From the IMG/VR virus record IMGVR_UViG_3300035092_000013, positions 1-62,252 of that record: DNA of 62,252 nt. One strand, 5' to 3'. Source of the DNA: a virus. Position numbers and translations under genes: made by a program. Positions 44,284 to 62,144 of this stretch are shown here, one piece after another. The notes beneath the pieces were generated by a model. The model did not search any database and was not told the DNA's origin. It saw only the letters and a program-made list of their open reading frames with translations. Position 1 is the first letter of the stretch; every line of letters begins with the position of its first letter.

Positions 44284-45234
44284 ATGCTCATCATCATCGA
44301 GGGCCCGGACGGCGCGGGTAAGTCGACGCTCGCCAGTCAGCTCACCGAGGTCATCCAGCGGGAGCAGCCCGGTGAGAAGATCGAACGTCTTCACAAGGGA
44401 CCACCGAGGTCCCACCCGCTGGATGAGTACGTCACCCCACTGCTGTCGTACCGGCCGACACGCGAACATCACATCATCTGCGACCGGTGGCACGTGGGTG
44501 AGTGGGTCTACCCCGCGGTCCTCGGCCGGAAGACCGATGCTGACAAGGCCATCTGGTACTTCACCGAGATGTTTCTCGCGTCACGCGGTGCGCTGGTCAT
44601 CTACCCAGAGTACACCGTGGACTCGCTCGTCAAGGCGGTCACCGAACTGGGCGACGACCTGATCGAGGTCGGCCAGCTCGGGAAGATCGCCGGAGCGTAC
44701 GCGTTCATGGCGGACAAGCACATCACGGTCTCGACCCACGTTCGTGGCAAGTCACCCGAGGCACTCGTCGCATTAGCTCGTCACCGTGAGAACATGGCCG
44801 AGCGACTGAACCTGCACACGACCTACGTCGGTCCGCCGAAGCCGGAGTGGATGATCGTCGGTGACATCCGCAACGGCACGTACGAGGGTGACCTGCGACC
44901 GGCGTTCATGCCGTACCGCGGCACATCGGGCCACTACCTCATGTCGGCGCTGTCACCCGGCCAGCTGCGAAGCGGTCTCGGGATCATGAACGCCTGTGAC
45001 GTCGACGACCCGCACATCGCGCAGTTCTTCACGTTCGAGGACGTGCCGACCGTGCCACTGGGTAATCACGCACATGCTAAGATGAACGGCGCAGGCGCCG
45101 AGTTCCCCGGAGCTCCTCACCCGCAGTTCATCCGGCGGTTCCACCACAGGCAGAGTGAAGAGTACGCTAGCGCGATCATCCGTGCACGGAAAGGACAGGA
45201 GAACATCACATGGCGTCCAGCTACCCGTACCTGA
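44284..45234 (+). CDS. dNMP (thymidylate-type) kinase fused to a uracil-DNA-glycosylase-like domain
   Basis: Residues 1-175 are a P-loop nucleotide kinase: Walker A GPDGAGKST (7-15) in the IEG-D-GKST context of thymidylate kinases, and IICDRWHVGEWVY (64-76) in place of the DRY motif. Residues about 188-300 resemble a UDG-superfamily domain: VGDIRNG (192-198), FMPYRGTSGHYL (208-219), LGIMNACDVDD (232-242), a VPLGNHAHAKM helix and HPQF (279-282) near the HPS position. The kinase would phosphorylate a (modified) dNMP before polymerisation. The fused domain may recognise or process a base. It overlaps the next gene by 25 bases. Confidence 0.75.
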   Translation: MLIIIEGPDGAGKSTLASQLTEVIQREQPGEKIERLHKGPPRSHPLDEYVTPLLSYRPTREHHIICDRWHVGEWVYPAVLGRKTDADKAIWYFTEMFLASRGALVIYPEYTVDSLVKAVTELGDDLIEVGQLGKIAGAYAFMADKHITVSTHVRGKSPEALVALARHRENMAERLNLHTTYVGPPKPEWMIVGDIRNGTYEGDLRPAFMPYRGTSGHYLMSALSPGQLRSGLGIMNACDVDDPHIAQFFTFEDVPTVPLGNHAHAKMNGAGAEFPGAPHPQFIRRFHHRQSEEYASAIIRARKGQENITWRPATRT

Positions 45235-46061
45235 GGTACGTCGACGGCCGCGAGGCGTATCCGGACCTGCTGGCGTACGTCAGGGACGAAGGCGATGTCC
45301 GAAGTCCTCGCGGTCTGAAGACCTATGACGTCGGCTACACCACCGTCGAGCTGCTCAGTCCGTACAACGCACTTGTGATCGGCATGGGTCGTAAGCTCTC
45401 CAAGCGGATCGCCGCGGCAGAAGCGATCCAGCTGATCGGCGGGTTCACCAACCCACAGCTCCTCCTCTCGGCCTCACCGGCGTTTGCCCGGTATATCGAA
45501 CCGTCCGGGAACTTCTGGGGCGCGTACGGAGGCCGGATAGCCCTTGGTGCCCAGTTGCCGGCGGTCGTCCGCAAGCTGACGGACGATCCCGACACCCGCC
45601 AGGCGATCATCACCCTCTGGAACCCCCATCTCGACAACCAGGTCGGTAAGAATGACTACCCGTGCACCGTCGCACTCGGGTTCTCGATCAAGCAGGGCAA
45701 GCTCGAGCTGGACGTCACCATGCGCTCCAACGACGTGTGGCATGGGTTCCCGTATGACATCTTCCAGTTCACGCAGCTTCAGCAGACCGTCGCCAACGTC
45801 CTCGGACGCGAACCCGGCCGGTACCGCCATCACACCTACTCCCTCCACCTCTACGCCGAGGACGTCGTCGAGGCGGAGAAGGTCTACACCGGTCACATCG
45901 ATAAGAAGCCTGACTTCCTCCCCCTCGGACTGGTCAACGGTGCGTTCCCGTCGATCGCTCAGGTGATGGCACGCGCACGCATGATCGCCAGTAACGATGA
46001 CATCATCAACGAGAGTGCGTCGGAGAGGTGGTACCGCGATGCTCTCCACCCGGCCGAGTGA
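45210..46061 (+). CDS. Thymidylate synthase homologue, predicted dCMP hydroxymethylase
   Basis: The 283-residue protein has the thymidylate synthase fold and active site at exact family spacing: Cys152 (YPCT), Arg172 (MRSND), Asp175, His213 and Tyr215 (SLHLY), and the WNPH motif at 137-140. The position equal to Lactobacillus casei Asn229 (E. coli Asn177) is Asp183 (GFPYDIF). In T4 dCMP hydroxymethylase this is Asp, and in L. casei the N229D change shifts preference to dCMP. I therefore predict a dCMP-specific enzyme that adds a 5-hydroxymethyl (or related) group using a folate. Whether it methylates or hydroxymethylates is not decided by sequence. It overlaps both neighbours (kinase and dCMP deaminase). 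Confidence 0.8.
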   Translation: MASSYPYLRYVDGREAYPDLLAYVRDEGDVRSPRGLKTYDVGYTTVELLSPYNALVIGMGRKLSKRIAAAEAIQLIGGFTNPQLLLSASPAFARYIEPSGNFWGAYGGRIALGAQLPAVVRKLTDDPDTRQAIITLWNPHLDNQVGKNDYPCTVALGFSIKQGKLELDVTMRSNDVWHGFPYDIFQFTQLQQTVANVLGREPGRYRHHTYSLHLYAEDVVEAEKVYTGHIDKKPDFLPLGLVNGAFPSIAQVMARARMIASNDDIINESASERWYRDALHPAE

Positions 46062-46548
46062 CGACGAGCTGTTCATGCGGGTCGCCCATCAGGTAGCGAC
46101 CCGCAGCCTCTGCGACCGCGACCAGGTCGGCGCGGTGATCGTCGACACGCAGCTGCGGATCACCGGCACCGGCCGCAACGGTCCACCCGCAGGGTTCGAG
46201 CATCAGGAACGGACGTGCACTGAGTGGTGCGTTCGCGCTAAGAACCTAGCGCATAACCGTCCGGGATACGTGATCGATCCGTCGTACTCCGACTGCCCGT
46301 CGCTTCACGCCGAGGTCAACGCACTTCTCACCAGTGACCGCAGTCGTCACGAGGGTGGTACGATCTACGTCACCAGCCCGCCGTGCTGGTCGTGCGGTAA
46401 GATGATCGCCAACTCGGGACTGCTGACGGTGGTCGTCGAGTTCGACCCGCTGAAGTTCGCGGAGCGACTAGCGGAGAACACCTACAAGTTCCTCGAGCAG
46501 CTCGGCATCAACGTGGTGATCATCGACACGAAGGGAACCGGACAGTGA
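46039..46548 (+). CDS. dCMP deaminase (ComEB-like)
   Basis: The 169-residue protein has the zinc deaminase motifs SLHAEVNAL (His90, Glu92) and SPPCWSCGK (Cys116, Cys119), plus a Cys-rich insert (CTEWCVRAK, DCPS) like the structural zinc site of phage dCMP deaminases. It converts dCMP to dUMP, which removes unmodified dCMP and feeds dTTP synthesis. ATG at 46039 lies within the end of the synthase gene (23-base overlap). Confidence 0.9.
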   Translation: MLSTRPSDDELFMRVAHQVATRSLCDRDQVGAVIVDTQLRITGTGRNGPPAGFEHQERTCTEWCVRAKNLAHNRPGYVIDPSYSDCPSLHAEVNALLTSDRSRHEGGTIYVTSPPCWSCGKMIANSGLLTVVVEFDPLKFAERLAENTYKFLEQLGINVVIIDTKGTGQ

Positions 46549-46691
46549 CGTTTCACGTACATCAAGACCAAGAGAAGCCGGAGAAGTCAGAGAGGTCGAG
46601 CCACCTCACGTGGCCCGACGTGATGGCGATGGCGATCACCGCCGCTACCCTGCTCGGTGCGATCGCCCTTACCGTCTGGGCGTTCAAGTGA
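46545..46691 (+). CDS. Single-pass membrane peptide, 48 residues
   Basis: GTG overlaps the deaminase stop (GTGA). A charged start (VHQDQEKPEKSERSSHL) precedes one transmembrane helix ending TVWAFK. Unknown role inside the replication operon. Confidence 0.55.
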   Translation: MTFHVHQDQEKPEKSERSSHLTWPDVMAMAITAATLLGAIALTVWAFK

Positions 46692-46795
46692 GACGCGACG
46701 ACACCAACTACATCCTCGTCTGGATAGGCATCCTTCTCGGGCTCCTCGTCTTCTGGGCGGTATGCATCGGGGGTGGCTGGGTTGTCGTTGGATGA
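46688..46795 (+). CDS. Single-pass membrane peptide, 35 residues
   Basis: GTG overlaps the preceding stop (GTGA). MRRDDTNYILVWIGILLGL and a Gly/Val-rich end: one hydrophobic helix with a basic start. Overlaps the polymerase gene. Confidence 0.5.
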   Translation: MRRDDTNYILVWIGILLGLLVFWAVCIGGGWVVVG

Positions 46796-48584
46796 CGTTC
46801 AGCTTCACCTCATCGAATCACTGGATGACGTCGGTGAGTTCACACGGTGGCTCGGTCAGACGCGGAACGGACCCAAGCTGTCGTTCGACACCGAGACGAC
46901 GGGACTGAGCCAAGAGACCAATCACATTCGTCTCTGTCAGATCGGTGACTCGGTTCACGGCTGGGCGTTCTCGTGGGAGCGCTGGTCGGGCATCATGGCC
47001 GACGTGGTGAAGACGTACAACGGTACCCTCGTGGCGCACAACGCGCCGTTCGACTGGGGCTTCATGAAGAAGGCCGGTGTCGAGCTTCCTCGTCATCGGA
47101 TCCGCGACACACGGCCGCAGTGTCACATCCTCGATCCGACATTCTCGACCGCGCTGAAGAACAACGCGGTGCGGTATGTGGACCCGCGTGCGAAGAACTC
47201 GCAGGAGGACTTCGCCGCCACCGGCTGGACGTGGTCCACCGTGCCGATCGAGTATGAACCGTACTGGTCGTACGGTGCCCTCGACCCGGTGTTGACGAAC
47301 CAGCTGGACGACTACACGTGGCCGAGGATTCAAGGAACTCCAGCGGAGAAGGCGTTCGACATCGAGAACTCCGTCCAGTGGGTTACCCACGACATGGAGC
47401 GGTACGGCGTTCACATCGACACCAGGTACGCGCACGAACGATACGAGCAGTTTCGTGCGCACTGCGACAAGATCGAAAAGTGGTGCATCAAGGAGTATGG
47501 TGTCGAGCCGGGTCGCAACGCACAGGTGATCTCGAGGCTGCACGATGACGGTGTCCAGTTCACGAAGGCCACCAAGGGTGGAGCCGTCTCGCTGGACGCC
47601 GAGGTCCTAGCGGCAATCGATCATCCACTTGCTCGGCAGGTGCTCGTTCGCCGTCGGTTGGAGAAACTCTCCTCCACCTACCTCAAGCACTACATCACCG
47701 AGGTGGACTCGAACGACCTTCTCCATCCGTCCATCAACACTCTCGGCGCGCGGACGTCTCGTATGTCGATGTCCAACCCGAACTTCCAGAACCTACCACG
47801 CGCGAGTGAGACGAACCCTGCGGCAACGGTGATCCGGAACTGTGTCGCAGCTCGCGAAGGACACACCCTGCTGTTCTGCGACTTCTCACAGATCGAGATG
47901 CGGATCCTCGCGTGGCTCGCTCAGGACGAGAACATGACCGCCGCGTTTAAGAGCGACGGTGACTTCTTCGTTAACCTGGCGCGGCAGCTGTATGACGACC
48001 CGACGATCGTGAAGGGTCACCCCCTTCGTGACCGCATCAAGAACGTCGGCTACGGGAAGATCTACGGTGCCGGTCTCGCTAAGCTGGCGTGGACGGCAGG
48101 AACCGACATCGAGACGATCCGCGTGACGATGCGGGACTTCGACGCGCGGTTCGCGGGTGTCCGTGCGTACCAGGACAGCACGTACTCACTCGCGATGCAG
48201 CGGAAGTCCAGTGTAGGACTCGCGTACGCCGACTGTCCGCTGTCCGGTCGCCGGCAGCCGTCGGACCCCGGCAAGGAGTACGCACTCGTCAACTACGTGA
48301 TCCAGGGTGCTGCAGCATCTCTCTTCAAGATGAAGGTGCTGGAGCTGGACCAGGCGGGTCTCTCTCCTTGGATGATGCTTCTCGTCCACGACGAGGTGAT
48401 CCTCGACGTGCCGAACGAGCACGTGGAAGAGACGGTGAACGTGCTCGCTACGATCATGAACGACAGCGAGATCATCGCACCGGTGCCGGTCGAGGCTGAG
48501 GTCTCGTTCGGTGCGAGGTGGGGATCGAAGATGAAGTGGGACATCGATCGGTGGGTGAAGGATGATTGGAGGTTGGCTACGTGA
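46773..48584 (+). CDS. Family A (PolA-type) DNA polymerase with 3'-5' exonuclease
   Basis: The 603-residue enzyme lacks the 5' nuclease. Exonuclease motifs: SFDTETTGL (Asp39, Glu41), HNAPFDW (Asp94) and YGALD (Tyr167, Asp171). Polymerase motif A LLFCDFSQIE (Asp370); motif B Arg419, Lys423, Tyr427-Gly428 (RIKNVGYGKIYG); motif C LVHDEV (His539-Asp540-Glu541). The aromatic motif B residue is Tyr, as in T7 DNA polymerase. It replicates the phage genome and would have to accept any modified dCTP. Start GTG at 46773 overlaps the membrane peptide gene; TTG at 46782 or 46788 is possible. Confidence 0.95.
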   Translation: MAGLSLDDVQLHLIESLDDVGEFTRWLGQTRNGPKLSFDTETTGLSQETNHIRLCQIGDSVHGWAFSWERWSGIMADVVKTYNGTLVAHNAPFDWGFMKKAGVELPRHRIRDTRPQCHILDPTFSTALKNNAVRYVDPRAKNSQEDFAATGWTWSTVPIEYEPYWSYGALDPVLTNQLDDYTWPRIQGTPAEKAFDIENSVQWVTHDMERYGVHIDTRYAHERYEQFRAHCDKIEKWCIKEYGVEPGRNAQVISRLHDDGVQFTKATKGGAVSLDAEVLAAIDHPLARQVLVRRRLEKLSSTYLKHYITEVDSNDLLHPSINTLGARTSRMSMSNPNFQNLPRASETNPAATVIRNCVAAREGHTLLFCDFSQIEMRILAWLAQDENMTAAFKSDGDFFVNLARQLYDDPTIVKGHPLRDRIKNVGYGKIYGAGLAKLAWTAGTDIETIRVTMRDFDARFAGVRAYQDSTYSLAMQRKSSVGLAYADCPLSGRRQPSDPGKEYALVNYVIQGAAASLFKMKVLELDQAGLSPWMMLLVHDEVILDVPNEHVEETVNVLATIMNDSEIIAPVPVEAEVSFGARWGSKMKWDIDRWVKDDWRLAT

Positions 48585-49048
48585 GATCGAAACATCTCGT
48601 CATCATCGGGGTGGACCCGGGCAAGGCGACGGGACTCGCTCTGTACTACAATGGACATCTGATCGCCAAGAACTCACTGCCGGCTAACGATTCACCCACC
48701 GAGATCTCCCGCTGGATCATCAACGCTAAGACGAAGTTCCAGGGTAACGCGCAGATCATCATCGCCGTCGAGCGCTACCAGACCGGCGGTAGCACGGTGA
48801 AGAAGACTCGGCAGGCCGACCCGGTCGAGCTCCTCGGCGCGTGTCGTATGATCGCGCGAGGTGATCCAGCGGTGAGTGTGGTCACGTCCAACGCCTCCGA
48901 CGCGAAGAAGGTCGGCAACCCGACGACCCTCAAGCGCATCGGCTGGTGGACACCAGGTCACGATCACATCAACGACGCGGCGTCGCAGGTCCTACGAACT
49001 CTCGCCGCCGTGCGACCTCTGGAGTTCGCTGAAGTGATCGGTGTGTAG
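48581..49048 (+). CDS. RuvC-like Holliday junction resolvase
   Basis: The 155-residue protein has the RNase H-like acidic residues of RuvC: IIGVDPGKATGLALYY near residue 9, IAVERYQTGG near 66 and DHINDAASQVLR near 135. It should cut branched DNA before packaging. GTG overlaps the polymerase stop, with TTGGAGG upstream. Confidence 0.85.
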   Translation: MRSKHLVIIGVDPGKATGLALYYNGHLIAKNSLPANDSPTEISRWIINAKTKFQGNAQIIIAVERYQTGGSTVKKTRQADPVELLGACRMIARGDPAVSVVTSNASDAKKVGNPTTLKRIGWWTPGHDHINDAASQVLRTLAAVRPLEFAEVIGV

Positions 49049-49080
49049 TAGGATAGACACTCAGGACAGGAGGAGACAGG

Positions 49081-50880
49081 ATGGCGTACGCCGAGTTCAA
49101 CCCGACCCGAAACCGGATCGATGTGACGACCCGGTATGAGGAGAAGGAGCTCATCAAGGCGATCCCAGGGTCGAAGTATCACGGTGAAGACAAGATGTGG
49201 TCCATACCCATCACGTTCACCGCATGTCTTCAGCTCCGGGGTCTCTTCAAGTCGGAGCTTCACATCGGTAACCAGCTCAAGAGCTGGGCGGCACTGGAAC
49301 GAGTCGATCGCATCGACCAGGCGATGACTCTTCGTACGAATCTTGAACCTGTGACGAGCTTTCGACTTCCAGGTCTCTACCCATTTCAAAACTCGGGTGT
49401 CGAATTTCTGACGGCCGCACACTCAGCACTTCTTGGTGATGAGATGGGCACGGGTAAGACGATCCAGTTGCTTGCCACACTTCAGCTTGAGCACCTTTCA
49501 GGTCCTCACCACAACGGAGGATCACTTCCGGCACTCGTCATCTGTCCGAACTCGACGAAGCACAACTGGGCTGATGAGGCCATGAAGTGGTTTCCCGAGG
49601 CGAAGCCGTACGTGATCTCGGGTGGTGTGGTCCAGCGGCGTAAGTTCTTCAAGCAGGCCGGTGACGACGCACTCGTGATCATCAACATCGAGGCGGTCCG
49701 CAACCACTCTCGTCTCGCGGGTTACGGGTCGATCCACCTCACGAACGAGGAGAAGGAACCGAAAGAGCTCAATGAGATCCCCTTCCGATCGGTCACGTTC
49801 GACGAGGCGCACCGGATGAAGGACCCGAAGTCGAAGCAGACCCGTGCTGCGTGGGCGGTTGGTCACGGCTCGACGGTGAGGCACCGGTTCGCGCTGACGG
49901 GTACGCCGATCGCCAATGACCCGTCCGACCTGTGGTCCATCCTTCACTTCCTCGCACCGGACGAGTTCCCGACGCGGTCCAAGTTCATCGACCGCTACTG
50001 CCTTCAGGCGTGGAACTCGTACGGCGGGCTGAGCGTGATCGGTGTCCAGCCGGAGACCCGTGAGGAGTTCCGTCAGGTGATCGGTCCGCGGTTCCGCCGG
50101 GTGACGAAGGATGAGGTGCTGAAGCAGCTCCCGCGTAAGCAGCGGCAGCTCATCAAGGTGGAGATGTCACCTAAGCAGGCGAAGGCGTACCGCGACATGG
50201 AGTCACAACTCGCGACCCGTGTCGACGGTGGCGTGATCGTCGCTGCGTCGAACCTCACCGCGCAGATCCGCCTTCTGCAGTTCGCCGGATCGATGTGCGA
50301 CGTCGATGAGGAGGGTCTGGTCACCCCGGTCGATCCGTCACCGAAGATCGACGCGCTGCTGGACATCATCGACGCGGCGCAAGGCAAACCACTCGCCGTG
50401 TGTGGTGTGCAGCGAAAGCTCATCGAGCTCGCATCACGTCGGCTCGACAAGTACAAGATCGGTCACGGTCTCATCACGGGTAAGATCGACGAGTGGACAC
50501 GGAAGCAGAACCTGAAGAGGTTCCAGAACGGTGAGCTTCCCGTCCTGATGTTCACCATCCAGGCCGGAGGCACGGGTCTCAACATGACCGCGGCCGACAC
50601 ACTTGTGTTCATCCAGCGGGACTGGTCGATGGTGAACAACCGGCAGGCTGAAGACCGCGTCCATCGCATCGGATCCGAGGTACACGAGTCGATCAACATC
50701 ATCGACATCGTCACCGAGGAAACGGTGGAAGAAACGGTTCTCGTTCGCTACCTCGAGAAGGTCCACCGATTGGATCAGATCACCGAGGACCGTGCACGCG
50801 CCAAGGCGAACGGCACGGACGTCACCGAGCTGGATGAGCTGGAGACCTTCATCCTCAACGCACACCTGGGGGAACTGTGA
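49081..50880 (+). CDS. SNF2-family (SF2) helicase/ATPase
   Basis: The 599-residue protein has motif I LLGDEMGTGKTIQLL near residue 118, motif II VTFDEAHRMKD near 240 (DEAH), motif III FALTGTPIAND near 275, motif V GGTGLNMTAADTLVF near 497 and motif VI NNRQAEDRVHRIGS near 521. The N-terminal 80 residues resemble the HARP-type domain of annealing helicases. It probably remodels replication forks or recombination intermediates. Shine-Dalgarno GGAGGAGACAGG. Confidence 0.9.
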   Translation: MAYAEFNPTRNRIDVTTRYEEKELIKAIPGSKYHGEDKMWSIPITFTACLQLRGLFKSELHIGNQLKSWAALERVDRIDQAMTLRTNLEPVTSFRLPGLYPFQNSGVEFLTAAHSALLGDEMGTGKTIQLLATLQLEHLSGPHHNGGSLPALVICPNSTKHNWADEAMKWFPEAKPYVISGGVVQRRKFFKQAGDDALVIINIEAVRNHSRLAGYGSIHLTNEEKEPKELNEIPFRSVTFDEAHRMKDPKSKQTRAAWAVGHGSTVRHRFALTGTPIANDPSDLWSILHFLAPDEFPTRSKFIDRYCLQAWNSYGGLSVIGVQPETREEFRQVIGPRFRRVTKDEVLKQLPRKQRQLIKVEMSPKQAKAYRDMESQLATRVDGGVIVAASNLTAQIRLLQFAGSMCDVDEEGLVTPVDPSPKIDALLDIIDAAQGKPLAVCGVQRKLIELASRRLDKYKIGHGLITGKIDEWTRKQNLKRFQNGELPVLMFTIQAGGTGLNMTAADTLVFIQRDWSMVNNRQAEDRVHRIGSEVHESINIIDIVTEETVEETVLVRYLEKVHRLDQITEDRARAKANGTDVTELDELETFILNAHLGEL

Positions 50881-51902
50881 CGATCCGCCGCGTCTCCAAC
50901 TCGGAGATCCAGGTGTTCAAGCAGTGCCGCCGCAAGTGGTGGCTCGCGTGGCACCGTGGTCTTCGTCCGACGGTGGAGTCGCCTCTCGGTGCACTCGCCA
51001 TCGGGCAGAACATTCACACGGCTCTCGCGGGTTGGTACGTGCCGGACGGGCAGCCCCGGACCAATCCCCAGGAAGCGCTCGAAAACCTCCTGAAGGATGC
51101 TGCAGAACGCCTCGGTACGTACTGGGGAAGCCAGGGCAAGGAGGTGCCACCCGCCGAGCTGAAGATTCTTCTGTCGGAGGCCGATCTCCAGCGGATCATG
51201 CTCGAGGGTTACATGCAGTGGATCGAAGAAACGGGTGCGGACCAAGACTTCACGATCATCGAGTCCGAGCGGTACGTGGAGGCGCCGTTCATCAAGCGAA
51301 ACGGCGTGCAGATCTACCTCATTGGTCGTCTCGACGTTCTCGCCGAGGATCACTGGTCGAAGCAGCTCGTCTTTATCGACCACAAGACCACCGGGTCGAT
51401 CCTCGAGTCGCTCAAGGGTATCGCTCTTAACCCGCAGATGCGCATGTACCGACTCATCCTTCAGCTCGCCGAAGACCGTGACGTGTACCTCGCCATCTAC
51501 TCGATGCTTCGCAAGGTGAAGCGGACGGTGAAGGCCAACCCGCCGTTCTTCCACCGTGAGAAGGTCCCACACAACCGTCACGAGATCGAGTCGTTCATCC
51601 AGCAGTTGATGGGCGTCATCTACGACATCATCGAGGTGGAGTATCATCTCAACGACGTCTACACGCGCCCAAACACGGTTCACAACCGTGCTGTCTACCC
51701 GACGTCAGGAGCGCACTGCCGCTACTGTCCGTTCCAGCGGGAGTGCTTGATGCTGGATGACGGCTCCCGTGCCGAGGACTCACTCGCTTCACGGTTCACC
51801 GTCGGTGAGCCGCTCCACTACTACGGAAGGGACGACCTTGCCCGAGTTCAACCCGGATCACGTCCTGTCGACTCTCATCCACGCCGGATCGAAGCAGGGT
51901 AA
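50877..51902 (+). CDS. Cas4/RecB-like PD-(D/E)XK nuclease with Fe-S cluster motif
   Basis: The 341-residue protein starts RRVSNSEIQVFKQCRRKWW, typical of Cas4/AddB-like nucleases, has the catalytic DHKTTG motif (about residue 163) preceded by an acidic LIGRLDVLAED, and ends with three cysteines (HCRYCPFQREC, about 280-290) that with Cys18 would bind an Fe-S cluster. It is a probable 5'-3' exonuclease for recombination. GTG overlaps the helicase stop (GTGA). Confidence 0.9.
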   Translation: MTIRRVSNSEIQVFKQCRRKWWLAWHRGLRPTVESPLGALAIGQNIHTALAGWYVPDGQPRTNPQEALENLLKDAAERLGTYWGSQGKEVPPAELKILLSEADLQRIMLEGYMQWIEETGADQDFTIIESERYVEAPFIKRNGVQIYLIGRLDVLAEDHWSKQLVFIDHKTTGSILESLKGIALNPQMRMYRLILQLAEDRDVYLAIYSMLRKVKRTVKANPPFFHREKVPHNRHEIESFIQQLMGVIYDIIEVEYHLNDVYTRPNTVHNRAVYPTSGAHCRYCPFQRECLMLDDGSRAEDSLASRFTVGEPLHYYGRDDLARVQPGSRPVDSHPRRIEAG

Positions 51903-52602
51903 GACCACCCTCGCATCCACGTCACCAACGCCTCACCTGGCACTCGACGCGGAGGGTGGCTGGAAGTTCATCGATGAGATGGGCTTCAAGACCGGTAAGA
52001 AGCTTCGCCGGATCCGCTGGAACCCGGCCACCGAAGCGATCCCACAACACGACGGAACGTGGGACCTCTGTAGCGTGACCGTGCGCAACTGGGCAACGAT
52101 GACGCTCATCTACCAGCACCTCACCCAGCGGGCTCATCAATTCCGCTCGATCACCTGGGACTCGATCACCGAGGTACAGCGAACCTGTCGTGACGCACTT
52201 CGCGGCACCGAGGCGATGCAGCTTCAGGACTGGGGTGTGCTCTTGGTCCAGATGGACGACATGATCCGTAAGTTCCGGAACCTGACACTGGACCCGGACA
52301 ACTCGGTGCAGGTCGTCAACTTCATCGCCGAGACGAAGATGCGTGACGGTAAGCAGCGTCCTTACATGCAGGGACAGATCACCGACGCTCTGCCGTATAT
52401 GGTGGACATCTGCGGGTACCTCACCACCCAGTGGGGTATGGACGAAGCGGGTCAGCCGACCGTCCGGCAGCCCGTGCTCAACATCGCACCAAGCGACTTT
52501 TGGGAGGCGGGCGAACGTGTTCAGGGTCGCCTCCCCAACTCCATCCTCCTTCCTAACATCACCGACATCCTCAACGCCGTCTATCCCAACGCCGTCAAGT
52601 AA
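51838..52602 (+). CDS. RecA/Sak4-like ATPase
   Basis: TTG at 51838 is chosen because GGAAGGG lies upstream and the preceding in-frame residues look like out-of-frame translation of the nuclease gene, which it overlaps. The 254-residue protein has Walker A HAGSKQGKTTLA near residue 15, LALDAEGGW near 33, and Walker B-like SITWDSITEVQR near 107, matching phage Sak4-type single-strand annealing ATPases. It should work with the SSB-like protein encoded next. Confidence 0.8.
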   Translation: MPEFNPDHVLSTLIHAGSKQGKTTLASTSPTPHLALDAEGGWKFIDEMGFKTGKKLRRIRWNPATEAIPQHDGTWDLCSVTVRNWATMTLIYQHLTQRAHQFRSITWDSITEVQRTCRDALRGTEAMQLQDWGVLLVQMDDMIRKFRNLTLDPDNSVQVVNFIAETKMRDGKQRPYMQGQITDALPYMVDICGYLTTQWGMDEAGQPTVRQPVLNIAPSDFWEAGERVQGRLPNSILLPNITDILNAVYPNAVK

Positions 52603-52641
52603 CGATCAAGAACGAATGCCGACATCAAAGAGGAGACACAC

Positions 52642-53229
52642 GTGGCCGACATGAACTTTGGCAAGATGCGACAGGACGCAATGACCGTCCTGACCGGAGA
52701 CTTCGTCGTTCGCTGCATCGAGGCGAAACCGGTGAAGAACTCGAACGGCGACGACATGATCAAGACCAAGCTGCAGATCATCGCCGGACCGTACACGGGA
52801 CGCAACCTGTCCAACAACTTCAACATCATCCCAAGCAACGTCCCCGCGCTGCAGATGTTCTTCAGCCACATGAGCCACTTCGGTCTCGACGAGGCGTACT
52901 TCGCCAAGCTGCCGAACGGCGAGTCCGGTGTTCACCAGATCGCCCGTGACCTCGTCGGCCGTGTTGTGGAGGTGAAGGTCGGGTCGCGCAAGTTCCAAGG
53001 TGTCGAGCGTGAGAACATCGAGGGCATCATGCCGGCACCCGCCGGTCTCGGTGGTGTCGGTCAGCCACAGTCGACGGCGCAACCGCTGCCGACGGCACTG
53101 CCCGTCGCGTCGGCGCAGACCGTGAACGGCGCGGCGTCGGTCACACTACCGATGACGGTCGGAACACCGTCCGACCCGGACGACGCTGCCACCGACGGCT
53201 CCGCCGAGGAGCCAGCTCTGCCGTTCTAA
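52642..53229 (+). CDS. Single-stranded DNA-binding-like protein
   Basis: The 195-residue protein has an OB-fold-like beta pattern (GDFVVRCIEAKPVKN, IKTKLQIIAGPYTGRNL, GRVVEVKVGSRKFQG) and then a flexible Pro/Ala linker with an acidic C-terminal tail ending EEPALPF, which mirrors the acidic IPF tail of bacterial SSBs that docks partner proteins. Position after the Sak4-like ATPase supports this. Confidence 0.65.
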   Translation: MADMNFGKMRQDAMTVLTGDFVVRCIEAKPVKNSNGDDMIKTKLQIIAGPYTGRNLSNNFNIIPSNVPALQMFFSHMSHFGLDEAYFAKLPNGESGVHQIARDLVGRVVEVKVGSRKFQGVERENIEGIMPAPAGLGGVGQPQSTAQPLPTALPVASAQTVNGAASVTLPMTVGTPSDPDDAATDGSAEEPALPF

Positions 53230-53252
53230 TCGATCACCGAACGTGGTAGAGT

Positions 53253-53279
53253 GGGAGCAGGCCGGTGTGGCCTGCTCCC
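53253..53279 (+). terminator. Intergenic hairpin between the SSB-like and glycosyltransferase genes
   Basis: An 11-bp perfect stem (53253-53263 with 53269-53279) with a five-base loop, followed only by TTAACC. It may be an attenuator. TGGTAGAGT at 53242-53250 just before it could be an extended -10. Confidence 0.5.
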
Positions 53280-53294
53280 TTAACCTGAGAGGAC

Positions 53295-54671
53295 ATGATG
53301 AGACGTAAGATCCTGTACGGCAAGATCGGGCGATCGATGCCGCTCACACTAGAGAAGTGCGGCACCCTCGGTGGTGACATCGAGATGACCGCCGTTCTCA
53401 CCGCACTCGCCAACGCCTACCCCGACGACGAGATCATCCTCATCGGTCGGAACACGGGTGAGAACCCGCAGGACGTCGGTCTGCCCAAGAACATTACGAA
53501 CCCGTGGACGGAGTGGGGTCCTCGTCTACGAAACTACCTCAATGGCACCGGTCTCAACCACCCGAACCTGTCGGTTGAGGAACACCGAATCGCGCTTCGC
53601 TTCATCATGAGTATGACACATGACACGTTTGTTGACGCGGACGCGATGGTCATCTGGGTCGGGCAGCACGGCACGTCGAACTCACCGATCCCGAAGATCG
53701 GTGATCGCTCCGTCCTCACCAAGCCACAGGACGCGTTCACCTACTACTCCGGCTTCCTCCTCCGCGGCATCAACCTGTGGCGTGATGTCGATCCCATCCA
53801 GCGGGAGCCGATTTTCCTTAACGCCGACCCGCGCAACTACCTCAAGATGCGCGACATGAAGTGGCCGTTGCGTTATCCCGTGCTGACGCAGTTCAACTTC
53901 GATCACAACATCAAGCACGAGCGCTACGGTGATCACACTCCCGTGTTGTCCGGGTACTGGGGTTCACGCTCTGACATCACGGCTGAGACCGGTGGCGACG
54001 TCTGGCGGTCCACCGTTCAGAACGTGTACTCGCGACTGGAGCTCAACGCCCTCATGTCCGGCACGCCGTCGGGTGACCTGCTGACGTATGACGGGAACTG
54101 GGAGAACCGCCGGCCGTTCGGTGTCGTGATCAACGAGGCGCGTGTGGTCGGGGTGCCCGAGCGCCTGGGTAGACTGCGCGCCATGCACGACTGGATCATG
54201 CCACTGCGACCCGCATTCGTTCACGGCACGTGGTCCGACAAATCGATGAACTCACTCGCCAACAGGTGGGGATTCAACTTGCAGATCACGCCTCTTCCCT
54301 GGTCGGACTACGCCGCGAAGATGCACACGGTCCGCTGCACCTTCACGACGCCGTCCAGTGGATCGGGCTGGGCAACGACGAAGCCGTGGGAGGCGTTCGG
54401 TCTCGGCGTGGTCTGCTTCTTCCACCCGGACTACGACACCCAAAACAACATCCTGGGTGACGCAAGTCCTCATCTTCACGCCTGGCTTCGTGTGAAAACC
54501 CCAGCGCAGTTGCGTGATCGCGTCATTCACCTCAACACCGTCGCAGGACGCCAAGACTGGGAGCGACTCGTCGATCTGCAGCATCAACACTTCATTAGGA
54601 ACATTAGTGGAAATCACCGCCCAACTTTTATGAAGATGATCGACGACCGCCTGAACGGAGTAGTTAGTTGA
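53295..54671 (+). CDS. GT-B fold glycosyltransferase
   Basis: The 458-residue protein has two Rossmann-like halves. N-terminal half: GTLGGDIEMTAVLTALAN and DDEIILIGRNTGE. C-terminal half: FGVVINEARVVGVPERLGR and the donor-binding SGSGWATTKPWEAFGLGVV (about 366-384), the Gly-rich/Glu pattern of GT-B enzymes. It is coupled to the RGP-like gene (TTGA) and lies in the same block as the dCTPase and C5-methyltransferase. I infer that it may glycosylate modified cytosines in phage DNA; a protein acceptor is possible. Confidence 0.75.
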   Translation: MMRRKILYGKIGRSMPLTLEKCGTLGGDIEMTAVLTALANAYPDDEIILIGRNTGENPQDVGLPKNITNPWTEWGPRLRNYLNGTGLNHPNLSVEEHRIALRFIMSMTHDTFVDADAMVIWVGQHGTSNSPIPKIGDRSVLTKPQDAFTYYSGFLLRGINLWRDVDPIQREPIFLNADPRNYLKMRDMKWPLRYPVLTQFNFDHNIKHERYGDHTPVLSGYWGSRSDITAETGGDVWRSTVQNVYSRLELNALMSGTPSGDLLTYDGNWENRRPFGVVINEARVVGVPERLGRLRAMHDWIMPLRPAFVHGTWSDKSMNSLANRWGFNLQITPLPWSDYAAKMHTVRCTFTTPSSGSGWATTKPWEAFGLGVVCFFHPDYDTQNNILGDASPHLHAWLRVKTPAQLRDRVIHLNTVAGRQDWERLVDLQHQHFIRNISGNHRPTFMKMIDDRLNGVVS

Positions 54672-55738
54672 AAACGACAATCATTCTCCCGTCGATCCGC
54701 GTGCCGCTGAACCTCAAGACGTGGGTGCTTCAGCTCGAACCTGAGACCGATGAGATCATCGTCGCCGGCAACGAGGCGTCTCCGCACGCGGCGATCACCG
54801 AGTTCCTCGGTCAGCTGACCAAGGATCACGGCGTGATGACGACCTACCTCGGTCCGCGTGATCCCCGCGTTACTGAAAAGGCGATCTTTGAGTTCATCCC
54901 GCCGAACCACACGTCACGCCGCAACTTCGCGCTGCTGCAGGCGCTGGAGAACCGGCCGGATGTTCTCGTCACGATCGACGACGACAACTACCCATACAAG
55001 GCCGACTGGCTTCGAGGTGTGAAGACACTTCTCGATCTCGACCAGCGCAACCATCGTACGGTCATAGGATCGGAGACGGGTTGGTGGAACGTCGGCCGTC
55101 TCTGCACACCGCGCGTGATTCACCGCGGCTATCCCATGACACGGTGGACCGAGCCGGACACAGGGCACATCGTCGACACCGACGCGACACCGATCGGCGT
55201 CGTCGCCAGTCTGTGGCTCGACGACCCAGACATCAACGCGGTCGAGCGTATGCTCACCAACCCGCAGGTGCTTCACGTCAGCGGTTCAGCGACCCTGGCA
55301 AAGGGTACGTGGTGCCCGTTCGACTCGCAGTCGACCAGTGTTCACGGCATGCTCGCTGACATGATGTTCATGTGGCCGGACCTCGGCCGGTATGACGACA
55401 TCTGGTCGTCGTACCTGATGCGGGCCGTCATGGACGTCACCGACTGGTACGTCACGTACGGCACACCGGCGGTCACCCAAGACCGCAACGCTCACAACCT
55501 GGTCCGTGACCTTCGTGACGAGCTATTTGGTTACGAGCACACCGAAGAGTTCACCGACTTCCTCCGTGAGCTGGTCAAAAAGAGGCCGGCGGGCATCATG
55601 CGCGCCCCGTACAGTGTCTATGAGCACTTTATGCGTGCGACCGCGGCCAACTACAAGCGCCTGCCGGCACTCACCCGTGACTCATTCTACGCGTGGCTGA
55701 CCGACCTCAACGACGTGCAGAAGCGGACGGGAATGTGA
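54668..55738 (+). CDS. RGP/UDP-arabinopyranose mutase-like (GT75-type) protein
   Basis: The 356-residue protein matches the reversibly glycosylated polypeptide family in order: N-terminal TTIILPSIRVPL, VTIDDDNYP with the DDD metal motif at 104-106, RGYPMTRW near 153-160 at the place of the RGYPF segment with the glycosylated Arg, VVASLWLDDPDINA (179-191), TWCPFDSQS and LGRYDDIWSSY (239-249). The plant enzymes interconvert UDP-arabinopyranose and UDP-arabinofuranose. Here it could supply UDP-arabinofuranose to the adjoining glycosyltransferase or transfer a sugar itself. The family call is by motif; the substrate is inferred. Confidence 0.75.
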   Translation: MKTTIILPSIRVPLNLKTWVLQLEPETDEIIVAGNEASPHAAITEFLGQLTKDHGVMTTYLGPRDPRVTEKAIFEFIPPNHTSRRNFALLQALENRPDVLVTIDDDNYPYKADWLRGVKTLLDLDQRNHRTVIGSETGWWNVGRLCTPRVIHRGYPMTRWTEPDTGHIVDTDATPIGVVASLWLDDPDINAVERMLTNPQVLHVSGSATLAKGTWCPFDSQSTSVHGMLADMMFMWPDLGRYDDIWSSYLMRAVMDVTDWYVTYGTPAVTQDRNAHNLVRDLRDELFGYEHTEEFTDFLRELVKKRPAGIMRAPYSVYEHFMRATAANYKRLPALTRDSFYAWLTDLNDVQKRTGM

Positions 55739-56289
55739 TGGATCGCCTCACCGAGATGTTCACACGTCAATCCGCACTCCAGCGTAACTCGTTGAACATC
55801 AACTTCACAGACATGTCCGTGAATGTTGAGGACCGTGCCGAGTACGTCCGCATGAACGTCCTCGCCGGAATCGTCGAGTTCACCGAAGCACTCAACGAGA
55901 CCGGCTGGAAGCCGTGGGCAACAAACCGTGATTATGACGCGACAAAAGTGATCTCCGAGCTCGTCGACGTGTGGCACTTCATGATGAACATCATGCTGGC
56001 ATCTGGCATCGAACCGGAGACTCTCGCCAGTCTGTTCTTCGAAAAGTATGTGTTGAAGAACCGGCGAAACGCGGAACGGCAAGCTGAGGGTTACGACGGT
56101 GTCTCGACGAAGTGCCCACACTGCCACCGCGCACTGGATGACGTCGGCATCGCGCAGAGCCGGATCCTCGGTGAGCTGGCGTTCGAGTGTGGTGGCTGTC
56201 ACAAGGGACTCGACGGAGCGACGATCATCGGCAAGGAGAACATCGAACGGATCGTGCGGATAGACAAGATCCTCAATCCGTCCACCTAG
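55738..56289 (+). CDS. All-alpha dCTPase/dUTPase (MazG-like) with C-terminal zinc ribbon
   Basis: Residues 1-95 are an all-alpha NTP pyrophosphatase: GIVEFTEALNETGWKPW and SELVDVWHFMMNI give the ExxE...ExxD metal site (Glu47, Glu50, Glu74, Asp77) of dimeric dUTPases, the superfamily that includes T4 dCTPase gp56. Residues 106-140 form a zinc ribbon (CPHC...CGGC). It would hydrolyse dCTP and/or dUTP to the monophosphate, both removing dCTP and supplying dCMP to the synthase homologue. The zinc ribbon is not part of the usual family and may couple it to another protein or DNA. Confidence 0.8.
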   Translation: MDRLTEMFTRQSALQRNSLNINFTDMSVNVEDRAEYVRMNVLAGIVEFTEALNETGWKPWATNRDYDATKVISELVDVWHFMMNIMLASGIEPETLASLFFEKYVLKNRRNAERQAEGYDGVSTKCPHCHRALDDVGIAQSRILGELAFECGGCHKGLDGATIIGKENIERIVRIDKILNPST

Positions 56290-56295
56290 TACGGT
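56290..56295 (+). promoter_or_regulatory. -10 element of a putative leaderless promoter for the C5-methyltransferase
   Basis: TACGGT at 56290-56295, six bases, then ATG at 56302. The gene has no Shine-Dalgarno. It is the only plus-strand member of the leaderless set. Confidence 0.5.
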
Positions 56296-56301
56296 TCAGC
56301 C

Positions 56302-57834
56302 ATGGACGCGATCGACGTGCTGGGGTTCGCCGGCGGCTTCACGCTCGGTATGGTGCAGGCGGGTTTCCGACTCGTCGGTAAGCGGGAGATGAAGGGCGGT
56401 TTTGGCGTCGCGAACTGCGAGGCCAACCGCCACCTCCTGGGTCACAACTGGCGATCCGAGGTCGGTGATCCAGCGGGGTGGACGGTGCCGAACGGCGGCG
56501 CGCAGGTCGCCTTCGGCAACCCGCCCTGCTCCGGCTTCTCGGTGATGAGCTCGAAGGAGTTCCGTGGTGCTGACTCGAAGATCAACCACTGCATGTGGGC
56601 CTTCGCTGAGTATGTGGCGCGCGTTCGTCCTCTGGTCGCTGTATTTGAGAGCGTGCCACAAGCGTTCCGCTCAGCTGACGGCCATGATCTCATGCGGTCG
56701 TTGCGGTCGCTCGTGGAGGAACGAACCGGTCTCACCTATGTACTGCACCACGTGTTGCACAACGCATACTCCGTCGGCGGAGCTGCTCTCCGTCCGCGGT
56801 ACTTCTGGGTGATCTCCCAGGTGCCGTTCGGCATCGAACGGCCGGTCATGTCGACCTACCCACTCCTCAAGGACGTCCTCTGGGACCTGAACATGTCGCC
56901 TTTGACGTGGTCGCAACAGCGGTACAAGCTACCTGTCACGACCGACTGGCTGAACCCGCGAGTCTCACCTACGGGGACGTTTGACGGGCACGTAGCGGTA
57001 GACAACCCGCTGACGAACCGGCTCAAGGACCTGCTGTCCGGCGTCGAGTGGACGGCAGGTCATCACGTCGGTCAGGTGGCGAAGCACTACTACGAGACGC
57101 ACGGCGCACTACCGCTGTCGTGGCGATCCACACAGGAGAAGCTGGTCAAGAACGACTTCTTCATGGGGTTCACGACACCCGTTCGCTGGAAGGGTGACCA
57201 ACCCGCTCGGGTGATCACCGGTGGTGGTCCAGTGATGGTGGTGCATCCGTGGCTGCCACGAACGCTGACCCACCGTGAAATCGCGCGGATCCTCGGGTTC
57301 CCCGACGACTGGCTGATCGAGCCGCTTAAGGGTGTTCCCGGCCTCAGCATGACGTGGGGTAAAGGGATCACCGTCGACTGCGGTCGCTGGATCGGCGGGT
57401 GGATCCAGCGGGCATTGAACGACGACCCGGGCTCATACCGCGGAACGGAGATCGGTGACCGTGAGTGGTTGATCGACGTAACCCACGACTGGAAGCAACA
57501 CGCTTCCTGGTACAGTAGGACGGTCGCACAAAAACTTAAGCCTTCCCCCACTGTCGTACGAAGGAGAACAACCATGACGGAACCCGGTGTGGAGACCACC
57601 GAGACGAAGGTGTCGCGGGCCGAGAAGCTCGGCGAGCGCGACGAGACCGTGTTCAACGTGCTCGCCGAGGGCGCGAAGACCCGCAACGAGGTCGGCGAGG
57701 TGACCGGCTTGACGATCGCCATGGCGTACCTGTCGCTCGATCGTCTGCGCAAGGCCGGCCGCGTCAACTCCGAGCGCCGTGACGGCAAGAGCGTCTGGTT
57801 CCGTCCGGACGTCGCCGGCGTCGCCGCGGAGTAA
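56302..57834 (+). CDS. DNA cytosine-C5 methyltransferase homologue joined to a winged-helix domain
   Basis: Residues 1-390 have C5-methyltransferase motifs: motif I LGFAGGFTLGMVQAGF, motif IV GNPPCSGFS with catalytic Cys76, motif VI as FESV (Glu116; the usual Asn is Ser), motif VIII as LRPRYFWV without the usual Gln, and motifs IX-X PARVITGGG and LTHREIARILGFPDDW. It should methylate cytosine in a DNA target, or act on a modified cytosine. Residues 425-510 form a separate winged-helix with its own internal start. Motif VI and VIII changes make its activity uncertain. The gene lies in the base-modification block. Confidence 0.8.
   Translation: MDAIDVLGFAGGFTLGMVQAGFRLVGKREMKGGFGVANCEANRHLLGHNWRSEVGDPAGWTVPNGGAQVAFGNPPCSGFSVMSSKEFRGADSKINHCMWAFAEYVARVRPLVAVFESVPQAFRSADGHDLMRSLRSLVEERTGLTYVLHHVLHNAYSVGGAALRPRYFWVISQVPFGIERPVMSTYPLLKDVLWDLNMSPLTWSQQRYKLPVTTDWLNPRVSPTGTFDGHVAVDNPLTNRLKDLLSGVEWTAGHHVGQVAKHYYETHGALPLSWRSTQEKLVKNDFFMGFTTPVRWKGDQPARVITGGGPVMVVHPWLPRTLTHREIARILGFPDDWLIEPLKGVPGLSMTWGKGITVDCGRWIGGWIQRALNDDPGSYRGTEIGDREWLIDVTHDWKQHASWYSRTVAQKLKPSPTVVRRRTTMTEPGVETTETKVSRAEKLGERDETVFNVLAEGAKTRNEVGEVTGLTIAMAYLSLDRLRKAGRVNSERRDGKSVWFRPDVAGVAAE
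57574..57834 (+). CDS. Internal in-frame gene: winged-helix protein
   Basis: ATG at 57574 (codon 425 of the methyltransferase frame) has a strong Shine-Dalgarno GAAGGAGAAC and, about 55 bases upstream, an extended -10 TGGTACAGT (57508-57516). The 86-residue product (KLGERDETVFNVLAEGAKTR, EVTGLTIAMAYLSLDRLRKA, NSERRDGKSVWFRPD) is a compact winged helix. No stop separates it from the methyltransferase, so it can be made both as a fusion and alone. Local base composition is more GC-rich than the methyltransferase part. Confidence 0.6.
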   Translation: MTEPGVETTETKVSRAEKLGERDETVFNVLAEGAKTRNEVGEVTGLTIAMAYLSLDRLRKAGRVNSERRDGKSVWFRPDVAGVAAE

Positions 57835-60861: not shown

Positions 60862-61911
60862 TTAAGCTCGCTGGATTCGCAAGGCTTCCGTCCACGCGTC
60901 GTACCATCGGTGCGCGTTGGCCTCGATCGTGAGGTGCTCGGCGACGATCGAGCGCCACTCCACACTGAGTTCACGTCGAAGAACGTCGTTGTTGACCAGT
61001 CGCTTCACCGAACGGTACCAGTCCTTCGGTGAGCGAGCTGTCCAGCCAACGCCGTGTTCCTTCAGGCTCACGTACTCCGGCCGGTCCGACGAGACGGGTA
61101 CGACACCGACAGACGCGTACTCCAGCGCCTTCAGCCACGACTTCGCACGGTTAAAGCGAGTGTCCGCCGTTGGCGCGACGCCGATGCCGAGTCGCTTACC
61201 GATCTCGACGTGCCAGTCGAGGAACGAGATGGCACCCGTCGTCTCGATACGTTCGGCGACCGACTCACCGAGTGCCTGCTTCACGCCGTCGGGTGGACCT
61301 ACGATCATGAACGATGACTCACGTGACAGCCGTGAAATCGCGGGTCCCATCGTCTGAAGGTCGTCTGGATGTGAGTGAACCGATCCACCCCAGCCGACGA
61401 CGATGCTGTCATCGTGTGGTACCTCGGTGAAGTAGCGCGGCACGTAGTTGCGCAGCAGTCTTCCAGGTGCGCGACGCCCATACACATCGAGCAGCGCCGG
61501 TGTCGACACGGTAACCAGCGTCGCGACGTCGCACGCTGGTAGCGTGTTCGACCACGAGTGATCCTCACCCCGTCCTGGGTGAAGAAGCTGCCACGCTGGA
61601 TTCCGCGGGTCGATGCACGTGAGGTCGTCATCCATATCTACGACGACGGCGACGTTCTTCTCACGGATCAGCGGGATGGCCTGCTGGAGAAAGCTGTGTG
61701 TCGGTCGCTGCAGCACGATGACATCGGCACCCGGCGGAAGTTCGACTGAGGTCATCTTACCGTTCAGGATTCTTCCCTGAAGTTGCTGAAGTCCACTCTT
61801 CTTGGTCACGATCTCGACATCGACACCCGACGCCTTGAGTGACATCGCCGGCCAGATGAGACGGTAGTAGCCGCAGCCGGTCTCATCCGCGGGATACACG
61901 TAGATCTTCAC
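60862..61911 (-). CDS. GT4-like glycosyltransferase (GT-B)
   Basis: GTG at 61911 overlaps the TGA of the upstream gene (GTGA) and has AAAGGAGA before it. The 349-residue protein has an N-terminal domain (KIYVYPADETGCGYYRLIWP) that binds the acceptor, a junction with VVDMDDDL, and a C-terminal donor domain (SIVVGWGGSVHSHPDD, FLDWHVEIGKRLGIGVAPT, RAKSWLKALEYASVGVVPV) with the Glu-containing E-x7-E-like motif of GT4 enzymes. It is the last gene of the operon that begins with the tail genes and the methyltransferase, so glycosylation of a virion protein is likely. Confidence 0.8.
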   Translation of the reverse strand: MKIYVYPADETGCGYYRLIWPAMSLKASGVDVEIVTKKSGLQQLQGRILNGKMTSVELPPGADVIVLQRPTHSFLQQAIPLIREKNVAVVVDMDDDLTCIDPRNPAWQLLHPGRGEDHSWSNTLPACDVATLVTVSTPALLDVYGRRAPGRLLRNYVPRYFTEVPHDDSIVVGWGGSVHSHPDDLQTMGPAISRLSRESSFMIVGPPDGVKQALGESVAERIETTGAISFLDWHVEIGKRLGIGVAPTADTRFNRAKSWLKALEYASVGVVPVSSDRPEYVSLKEHGVGWTARSPKDWYRSVKRLVNNDVLRRELSVEWRSIVAEHLTIEANAHRWYDAWTEALRIQRA

Positions 61912-62144
61912 AGCTGCGTCTCCTTTTCCTCTGCGTGCCAACGGAGAAGGTTACGTGCGTATACGATACTGAAGGCCACTCCTGAGAGAACGAATCCCCA
62001 CTGGTTTGTGATAAACCCGTAGGTGATCCAGATGACCTGTGAGATCAGACCGACCACCCACGCGGACTTGAGCTTGTTACCCGCGAGGATCATACTCGTG
62101 ATGCCGAGAAGCGCGAGTGCGATTGACCACCATGGGTTCACCAT
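61908..62144 (-). CDS. Small membrane protein with three transmembrane segments
   Basis: The 78-residue protein starts MVNPWWSIALALLGITSM, has two further hydrophobic helices (VVGLISQVIWITYGFI and FVLSGVAFSIVYARNLL) and a charged end (RWHAEEKETQL). It resembles small three-helix transport-like modules, but the function is unknown. It lies between two glycosyltransferase genes once the contig is circularised: its ATG overlaps the end of the GT2 gene (13-621) by 7 bases. It might move a sugar precursor or anchor the modification enzymes. Confidence 0.7.
   Translation of the reverse strand: MVNPWWSIALALLGITSMILAGNKLKSAWVVGLISQVIWITYGFITNQWGFVLSGVAFSIVYARNLLRWHAEEKETQL

Follow-up and report, generated by a model that had tools for sequence, protein, structure and literature searches.

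Genes for a predicted furanosyl-cytosine pathway in the replication block of a phage genome

Results

The DNA analyzed in this work (the window) is a phage genome of 62,252 bases, held as one virus record in IMG/VR (IMGVR_UViG_3300035092_000013). Its minus strand encodes tail, head, portal, and terminase proteins, and the plus strand carries, at positions 44284 to 57834, a replication block in which genes of a putative cytosine-modification pathway lie together with the gene of a family A DNA polymerase (PolA) and recombination genes, all in one direction. The modification genes are embedded in this block, away from the tail genes, and encode a kinase, a thymidylate synthase homologue, a deaminase, a glycosyltransferase (GT), a sugar mutase homologue, a dCTPase-like enzyme, and a cytosine C5-methyltransferase (C5-MTase) homologue. 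A first-pass annotation of the window had proposed that the phage makes a 5-substituted deoxycytidine monophosphate (dCMP), incorporates it, and decorates it with a sugar. The specificity residues of the synthase, the dCTPase-like enzyme, kinase, deaminase, and mutase, and the RB69-type arabinose genes found in the corresponding slot of relatives support this proposal. We regard it as probable that deoxycytidine (dC) in the phage DNA is replaced by 5-hydroxymethyl-dC or 5-hydroxy-dC carrying a furanosyl sugar, which is most likely arabinofuranose.

The thymidylate synthase homologue (45210 to 46061, plus strand; Pfam Thymidylat_synt, E = 6.7e-20) had been singled out for an Asp at the base-specificity position, and this was confirmed by alignment. 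Within its C152-T153 and D183 elements, Thr153 and Asp183 fall at positions 147 and 177 of Escherichia coli ThyA, and the catalytic Cys and the general thymidylate synthase residues E58, R166, D169, H207, and Y209 are retained. The same Thr147/Asp177 pair is present in T4 gp42, the RB69 enzyme, the Actinomycetia phage DSL-LC01, three Gordonia phages, the Micrococcus phage Kurnik, and the Pseudoalteromonas phage XG4, as well as in all 12 relative virus records searched (12/12); the controls carry His/Asn (E. coli ThyA) and Asn/Asn (Bacillus phage SPO1L1). In MetaGPA (PMC8670742), no positions distinguished modified contigs from unmodified ones better than 147 and 177. The protein is thus predicted to be a dCMP hydroxymethylase or a 5-hydroxy-dCMP synthase. 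It scores 69.7 bits against the RB69 enzyme and 48.5 bits against T4 gp42, and the synthase tree does not discriminate between a grouping with RB69 (approximately unbiased test, P = 0.165) and one with the T4 type (P = 0.051). The RB69-type (Mosigvirus) enzyme, a member of the same superfamily, has been described as making 5-hydroxy-dCMP (PMC13390438). Since the window synthase scores higher against this enzyme, 5-hydroxy-dC may be the acceptor instead of 5-hydroxymethyl-dC. The cytosine-type Thr/Asp pair was also seen in a protein of Pseudoxanthomonas phage PW916 annotated as a deoxyuridylate hydroxymethyltransferase (locus L107, 523 to 1341), which may be misannotated.

Three further enzymes of nucleotide metabolism are encoded in the block. 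The thymidylate-kinase-like dNMP kinase (44284 to 45234, plus strand; 316 amino acids) matches TIGR00041 over residues 1 to 43 (E = 5.8e-7) and phrog_761, thymidylate kinase (E = 3.6e-10), and its profile matches P-loop kinases over the N-terminal half only. The gene is conserved together with that of the synthase, and its C-terminal extension (about residues 190 to 316) is conserved in relatives. The kinase assignment stands for the N-terminal half, but the glycosylase-like domain previously proposed to be fused to it is not supported, because the C-terminal half matched no family in searches of Pfam, PHROG, and NCBIfam. The dCMP deaminase was recovered as annotated (45997 to 46548, plus strand; PF00383, E = 2.4e-17; phrog_174, dCMP deaminase, E = 2.1e-37); its listed ATG overlaps the synthase gene, and a later start is likely. 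The all-alpha NTP pyrophosphatase (55693 to 56289, plus strand), also named correctly as a dCTPase-type enzyme, matches dUTPase_2 (E = 7.5e-16) and phrog_18650 (E = 8.6e-31), has EFTE and ELVD motifs, and resembles the RB69 gp56 dCTPase over the WKPW and HFxxN stretches (single-comparison E = 7e-10). These are the features of a gp56-type dCTPase/dUTPase, its substrate being predicted from sequence. All parts of the system, those described below included, have housekeeping relatives, and ordinary nucleotide metabolism could in principle account for them: the synthase would be a diverged thymidylate synthase working alongside enzymes of the nucleotide pool, the methylase would be an orphan, and the GT genes would have no connection with either. 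This reading is very unlikely in view of the Asp177/Thr147 pair, the resemblance to a dCTPase, and the conservation of the block together with sugar-donor genes.

The GT gene (53295 to 54671, plus strand) encodes a protein with no Pfam or NCBIfam match. Despite this, the GT-B fold suggested earlier was recovered with an AlphaFold2 model of moderate confidence (pLDDT 70, pTM 0.68), which matches GT-B glycosyltransferases in Foldseek (E = 5.8e-6). The top PDB sequence match of its profile is the T4 DNA beta-glucosyltransferase (BGT), although the similarity is weak (E = 0.019; hhalign 88.6%); E366 aligns with BGT E272. The protein is predicted to be a DNA furanosyltransferase, perhaps an arabinofuranosyltransferase. 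It is not a homologue of the DSL-LC01 GT.

The adjacent gene (54668 to 55738, plus strand) encodes a homologue of the GT75 family of NDP-pyranose mutases. Its matches to Pfam RGP and STELLO are both below the cut-off, yet the annotation as an RGP/UDP-arabinose-mutase-like protein holds, as a profile built from nine sequences gives a full-length match (hmmsearch E = 2.6e-50) to MtdL, an NDP-pyranose mutase (pyranose to furanose) from actinobacteria whose structure has been solved (PMC9937993). The AlphaFold2 model (pTM 0.86) aligns with MtdL (7xps; Foldseek TM 0.84, E = 3e-24) and with rice UAM (8cid; Foldseek E = 4e-12). The active-site residues in the window protein are DDD 104 to 106, R153, D188, S220-Q221, R241, D244, R273, and H276. 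Conservation was then counted over 27 phage homologues in MtdL numbering, with residue roles taken from the same paper. The reactive (nucleophile) Arg159, Asp110-111, Asp195, Arg257, Asp260, and Arg289 are invariant (27/27); Asp109 (one D109N), Gln229, and His292 each vary in 1 of the 27; and Ser228 is Ser or Thr. Since the residues are mostly kept and two positions are changed (see below), homology to GT75 is firm, and mutase activity is likely, with altered details, as judged from sequence and model. At the MtdL base-specificity positions Thr13/Asp40, the window clade has Pro/Asn and loci carrying a short-chain dehydrogenase/reductase (SDR) mostly Thr/Asp, a difference that is suggestive only.

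The first-pass annotation had regarded this assembly of genes as new, but the block is conserved across many phages. Its gene order is kept in 11 phage contigs, and synteny also holds around the gene of the C5-MTase-like protein in its 80 best relatives, several isolates included. The shared order runs from the polymerase, the recombinase, and the single-stranded DNA-binding protein (SSB) to the GT and sugar genes, then to the dCTPase-like gene and the C5-MTase-like gene. PolA (46773 to 48584, plus strand), a conserved neighbor annotated as DNA polymerase I in the syntenic DSL-LC01 and Kurnik genomes, is presumably the polymerase that incorporates the modified dCTP. This conservation bears on the possibility that the sugar handled by the GT and mutase goes onto virion proteins or a surface glycan, with the synthase, dCTPase, and kinase only making unglycosylated hydroxymethyl-dC or balancing dNTP pools. 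GT75-like genes of the cyanophage S-T4 do lie among sugar genes without DNA-modification genes, and two further GT genes are present at the ends of the window. However, the GT and mutase genes are located between the SSB and dCTPase genes in nearly all relatives, and in XG4 a homologue of the window's GT is accompanied by a module of the RB69 type and by a synthase of the dCMP hydroxymethylase type. We consider a role confined to proteins or glycans improbable.

The position next to the GT gene behaves as a slot for donor genes. Among 40 dereplicated loci carrying the window's GT family, 24 encode a GT75 protein, 12 an RB69/Thanatos-type NTP-transferase module, none both, and 4 neither (Fisher P = 3e-7). 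On the GT tree, two switches may suffice to produce this exclusion, which therefore shows substitution and not 36 independent events. One locus of the NTP-transferase type (L071) has an additional KdsD/GutQ-like isomerase similar to RB69 ORF055c. At a locus of the GT75 type (L055, 5430 to 8649), the mutase gene stands in one run with genes for an extended SDR and for a dehydrogenase of NDP-sugars (UDP-glucose type), possibly a full route from UDP-glucose to UDP-arabinofuranose in a phage. The SDR of the relatives could not be named as a GDP-fucose synthase or a UDP-pentose enzyme, its best NCBIfam match, Fcl, being far below the cut-off.

Other phages fill the slot differently. In DSL-LC01 it holds an FAD-type UDP-galactopyranose mutase with a different GT family, and in the T4-like Aeromonas phage AS-gz (L025, 8776 to 12040) a UDP-galactopyranose mutase gene adjoins a homologue of the DSL-LC01-type GT, which makes AS-gz a candidate galactofuranosyl-hydroxymethylcytosine phage. 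The Gordonia phages have the DSL-LC01-type GT family, with no mutase detected. Kurnik, which is culturable, shares the block, but its synthase is of the T4 type and three different putative GT genes take the place of the mutase (L027, 14525 to 17839). Many phages of Rhizobium, Agrobacterium, and Sinorhizobium (L024, H50-H78) also encode a UDP-galactopyranose mutase. One of them, Agrobacterium phage Atu_ph04, has this mutase, a thymidylate synthase, and a GT; its authors attributed the mutase to the cell wall (PMC6630229). Because the DNA of Atu_ph04 resisted nine restriction enzymes (PMC6630229), the mutase of Rhizobiales phages may instead serve DNA modification.

These loci raise the question of whether the window's GT75 protein converts host UDP-galactopyranose into UDP-galactofuranose for transfer to cytosine. 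Plant GT75 enzymes also convert UDP-galactopyranose (PMC9937993), UDP-galactose is nearly universal in hosts, no pentose-making enzyme is encoded in the window, and the galactose-type mutases of DSL-LC01 and AS-gz point in the same direction. On the other hand, those mutases go with GTs of another family, arabinose-type modules are the partners of the window's GT family in relatives, and the position of Asp87, which contacts the hexose O6 in MtdL, is Thr or Ile here. Galactofuranose is possible but rather unlikely. As what the donor genes have in common is a furanose or an arabinose, arabinofuranose is our leading candidate, with galactofuranose second. The earlier suggestion of arabinose is thus refined: furanose describes the predicted sugar better, and arabinose is likely on the basis of sequence.

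The C5-MTase homologue is encoded at the end of the block (56302 to 57834, plus strand; PF00145, E = 2e-16) and has a C-terminal helix-turn-helix-like (TrmB-like) tail (E = 0.013). It was aligned with 83 relatives, with HaeIII, Dcm, and PfAC20 (an inovirus methylase) as controls. The base-chemistry residues Cys, Glu, Arg, and Arg (C76, E116, R164, and R166 in the window) are invariant (83/83), but the cofactor site departs from the canonical one. The motif X Asn is replaced by Lys in 83/83 (K354 in the window); in motif I, at least 81 of the 83 have lost the Phe, and the first Gly has become Phe, Leu, or Tyr in every relative (83/83). The ribose-binding Glu is missing in 35/83, and in the DSL clade the site is degraded even for the nucleoside of S-adenosylmethionine (SAM). 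The controls are canonical on the same alignment, except that PfAC20 has Asp at the ribose position and Glu at the adenine position. Because the cofactor pocket is rebuilt despite intact base-chemistry residues, the homologue is probably not an ordinary methyltransferase; the family assignment made previously stands, and an ordinary methylase is unlikely. Good relatives in the annotated phage collection were confined to Gordonia phages with a cytosine-type synthase, DSL-LC01, and Kurnik.

Such a protein might be the first modifier, placing a methyl or carboxymethyl handle on cytosine in DNA (as in TET/5mC or CmoX) to which the sugar is attached later. In line with this, the homologue always accompanies the block, and its motif X Lys occupies the position at which an Arg of CmoX binds the carboxylate of carboxy-SAM (PMC12783734). 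However, no CmoA-like gene was recognized among the window proteins searched (Pfam, PHROG, NCBIfam), the cofactor site is eroded as described above, and a mononucleotide route is already present. We judge this order of events unlikely. More speculatively, the protein could be an undescribed catalyst, which would flip and attack cytosine (or its 5-hydroxymethyl or 5-hydroxy form) in DNA through Cys/Glu/Arg, with a donor other than SAM or none, in a furanosyl-cytosine step conserved across actinobacterial phages.

Discussion

Comparison of sequences and structures identified the enzyme families, the cytosine-type residues, a mutase active site intact save for two positions, and the conservation of the block. 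A pathway of five steps could be built from these parts. The dCTPase-like enzyme would convert dCTP to dCMP, and the cytosine-type synthase would then place a hydroxymethyl (or hydroxyl) group on C5 of dCMP. The phage's own kinase, followed by an NDP kinase of the host, would phosphorylate the product to the triphosphate for incorporation by the phage PolA, while the deaminase would drain leftover dCMP to dUMP. The GT75 mutase would turn an NDP-pyranose into an NDP-furanose, most likely UDP-arabinofuranose, with UDP-galactofuranose or a fucofuranose donor as alternatives. Finally, the GT-B enzyme would attach the furanose to the hydroxyl at C5 of the modified base in DNA as a shield against host nucleases. 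Which way each reaction runs, which sugar and which acceptor are used, and that DNA is the target are inferences in this scheme.

Besides the small number of switches on the GT tree, several observations weigh against this pathway. In the mutase, the Mn-binding His287 is replaced by Gln in 25/27 phage homologues and by Ser in 2/27 (Gln271 in the window), and the sugar-site Asp87 by Thr, Ile, or Val (Thr82 in the window), a position that is Ser in AtRGP2 and active plant enzymes; because of these two changes, the activity may differ. When the profile is made deeper, the similarity of the GT to BGT drops (E = 0.46; hhalign 52%), which weakens the case for strong homology, and BGT is absent from the top 50 Foldseek matches of the GT model. 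A relationship to RB69 ORF003c was rejected as well, the GT profile giving no match to it. The synthase could make 5-methyl-dCMP or 5-hydroxy-dCMP, and no enzyme supplying an NDP-pentose was detected in the window, unlike in the SDR-carrying relatives.

Arabinosylated cytosine is established in phages (PMC6024577, PMC13390438). Arabinofuranosylation in phages is announced in the title of a 2026 Nat Chem Biol paper cited in PMC13390438, and arabinosyl-hydroxy-cytosine is, by its title or the accounts of other papers, the subject of a 2025 Cell Host Microbe paper. The source of the arabinose donor has been called unclear in the best-studied phages (PMC13390438). The pathway predicted for the window resembles the T4 and RB69 pathways in a pre-replicative change of dCMP followed by post-replicative glycosylation. 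With T4 hydroxymethyl/glucosyl-cytosine it shares the dCTPase, a dCMP-specific synthase, the deaminase, the kinase, and a GT-B glycosyltransferase predicted to act on DNA. T4, however, uses host UDP-glucose and does not need to make a donor, the window synthase is closer to that of RB69, and the similarity to BGT is marginal. With the arabinosyl-cytosine of RB69/Mosigvirus and the pentosyl-cytosine of Thanatos, the common elements are the cytosine-type synthase homologue, a gp56-like dCTPase, a kinase, phage sugar-donor genes, and a GT; moreover, relatives of the window carry an NTP-transferase/kinase module of the type found in these phages, one of them together with an arabinose-5-phosphate-isomerase-like protein. 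Unlike RB69, the window has a GT75 mutase instead of that module, a GT without detectable similarity to ORF003c, an actinophage-like genome with PolA, and a C5-MTase-like protein.

The GT75 mutases MtdL, Hyg20, and plant UAM/RGP share with the window protein full-length homology, the fold, the DDD motif, and the autoglycosylated Arg. The window protein differs from them in the changes of His287 to Gln and Asp87 to Thr/Ile and adjoins replication genes, whereas the known enzymes belong to antibiotic or cell wall synthesis. CmoX, a DNA cytosine carboxymethyltransferase, and the C5-MTases have in common with the last protein of the block the C5-MTase fold, the base-chemistry residues, and a basic residue at the position of HhaI Asn304; the window homologue has Lys, not Arg, there, motif I and the ribose Glu are eroded, and CmoA was not recognized. 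DSL-LC01, the Gordonia phages GMA2, Forza, and GodonK, and Kurnik have the same block of synthase homologue, dCTPase-like enzyme, C5-MTase-like protein, and GTs, but their slot is filled by GTs of other families and by other donor genes. Our literature searches found no published DNA modification for any of these phages and, in the open-access literature, no paper tying GT75 or UDP-galactopyranose mutase to phage DNA.

What sets the predicted pathway apart from those of T4 and RB69 is the supply of the donor through a pyranose mutase and a GT of another family, and the chemistry of the C5-MTase-like protein may be new. If the pathway holds, phages have at least three unrelated ways of making furanose donors (GT75, FAD-type UDP-galactopyranose mutase, and the RB69-type NTP-transferase module) that share one swappable slot in a conserved replication block, so the donor sugar would be predictable from gene content. 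The mutase route would be a concrete candidate for the source of the arabinose donor. The rebuilt C5-MTase homologue is a widespread, conserved protein whose annotation as a methyltransferase is probably mistaken. The same core block is found in Gordonia and Micrococcus phages that can be cultured.

A search for a host through GTDB genomes gave 21 pattern matches and no relatives. The Glutamicibacter phage Montesquieu was considered as an arabinosylated actinophage and dismissed, its neighboring genes being those of thymine modification. RB69p050 (L022, 26492 to 27661), annotated as a "peptidase" in the RB69 sugar cluster, appears to be of the U32/TrhP type, known from the hydroxylation of tRNA uridine, which might connect it with 5-hydroxycytosine. 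Additional GT genes lie on the minus strand at both ends of the record, at 60862 to 61941 and 13 to 621 (phrog_7162 and phrog_14775); the former recurs downstream of the block in many relatives, and the two enzymes might attach a second sugar or act on virion proteins. Also on the minus strand, positions 18219 to 25178 encode a giant multidomain virion protein of 2,319 amino acids (phrog_2468, phrog_1198, phrog_3895) with a head-morphogenesis N terminus, a Nudix-like stretch, and an ADP-ribosyltransferase-like C terminus.

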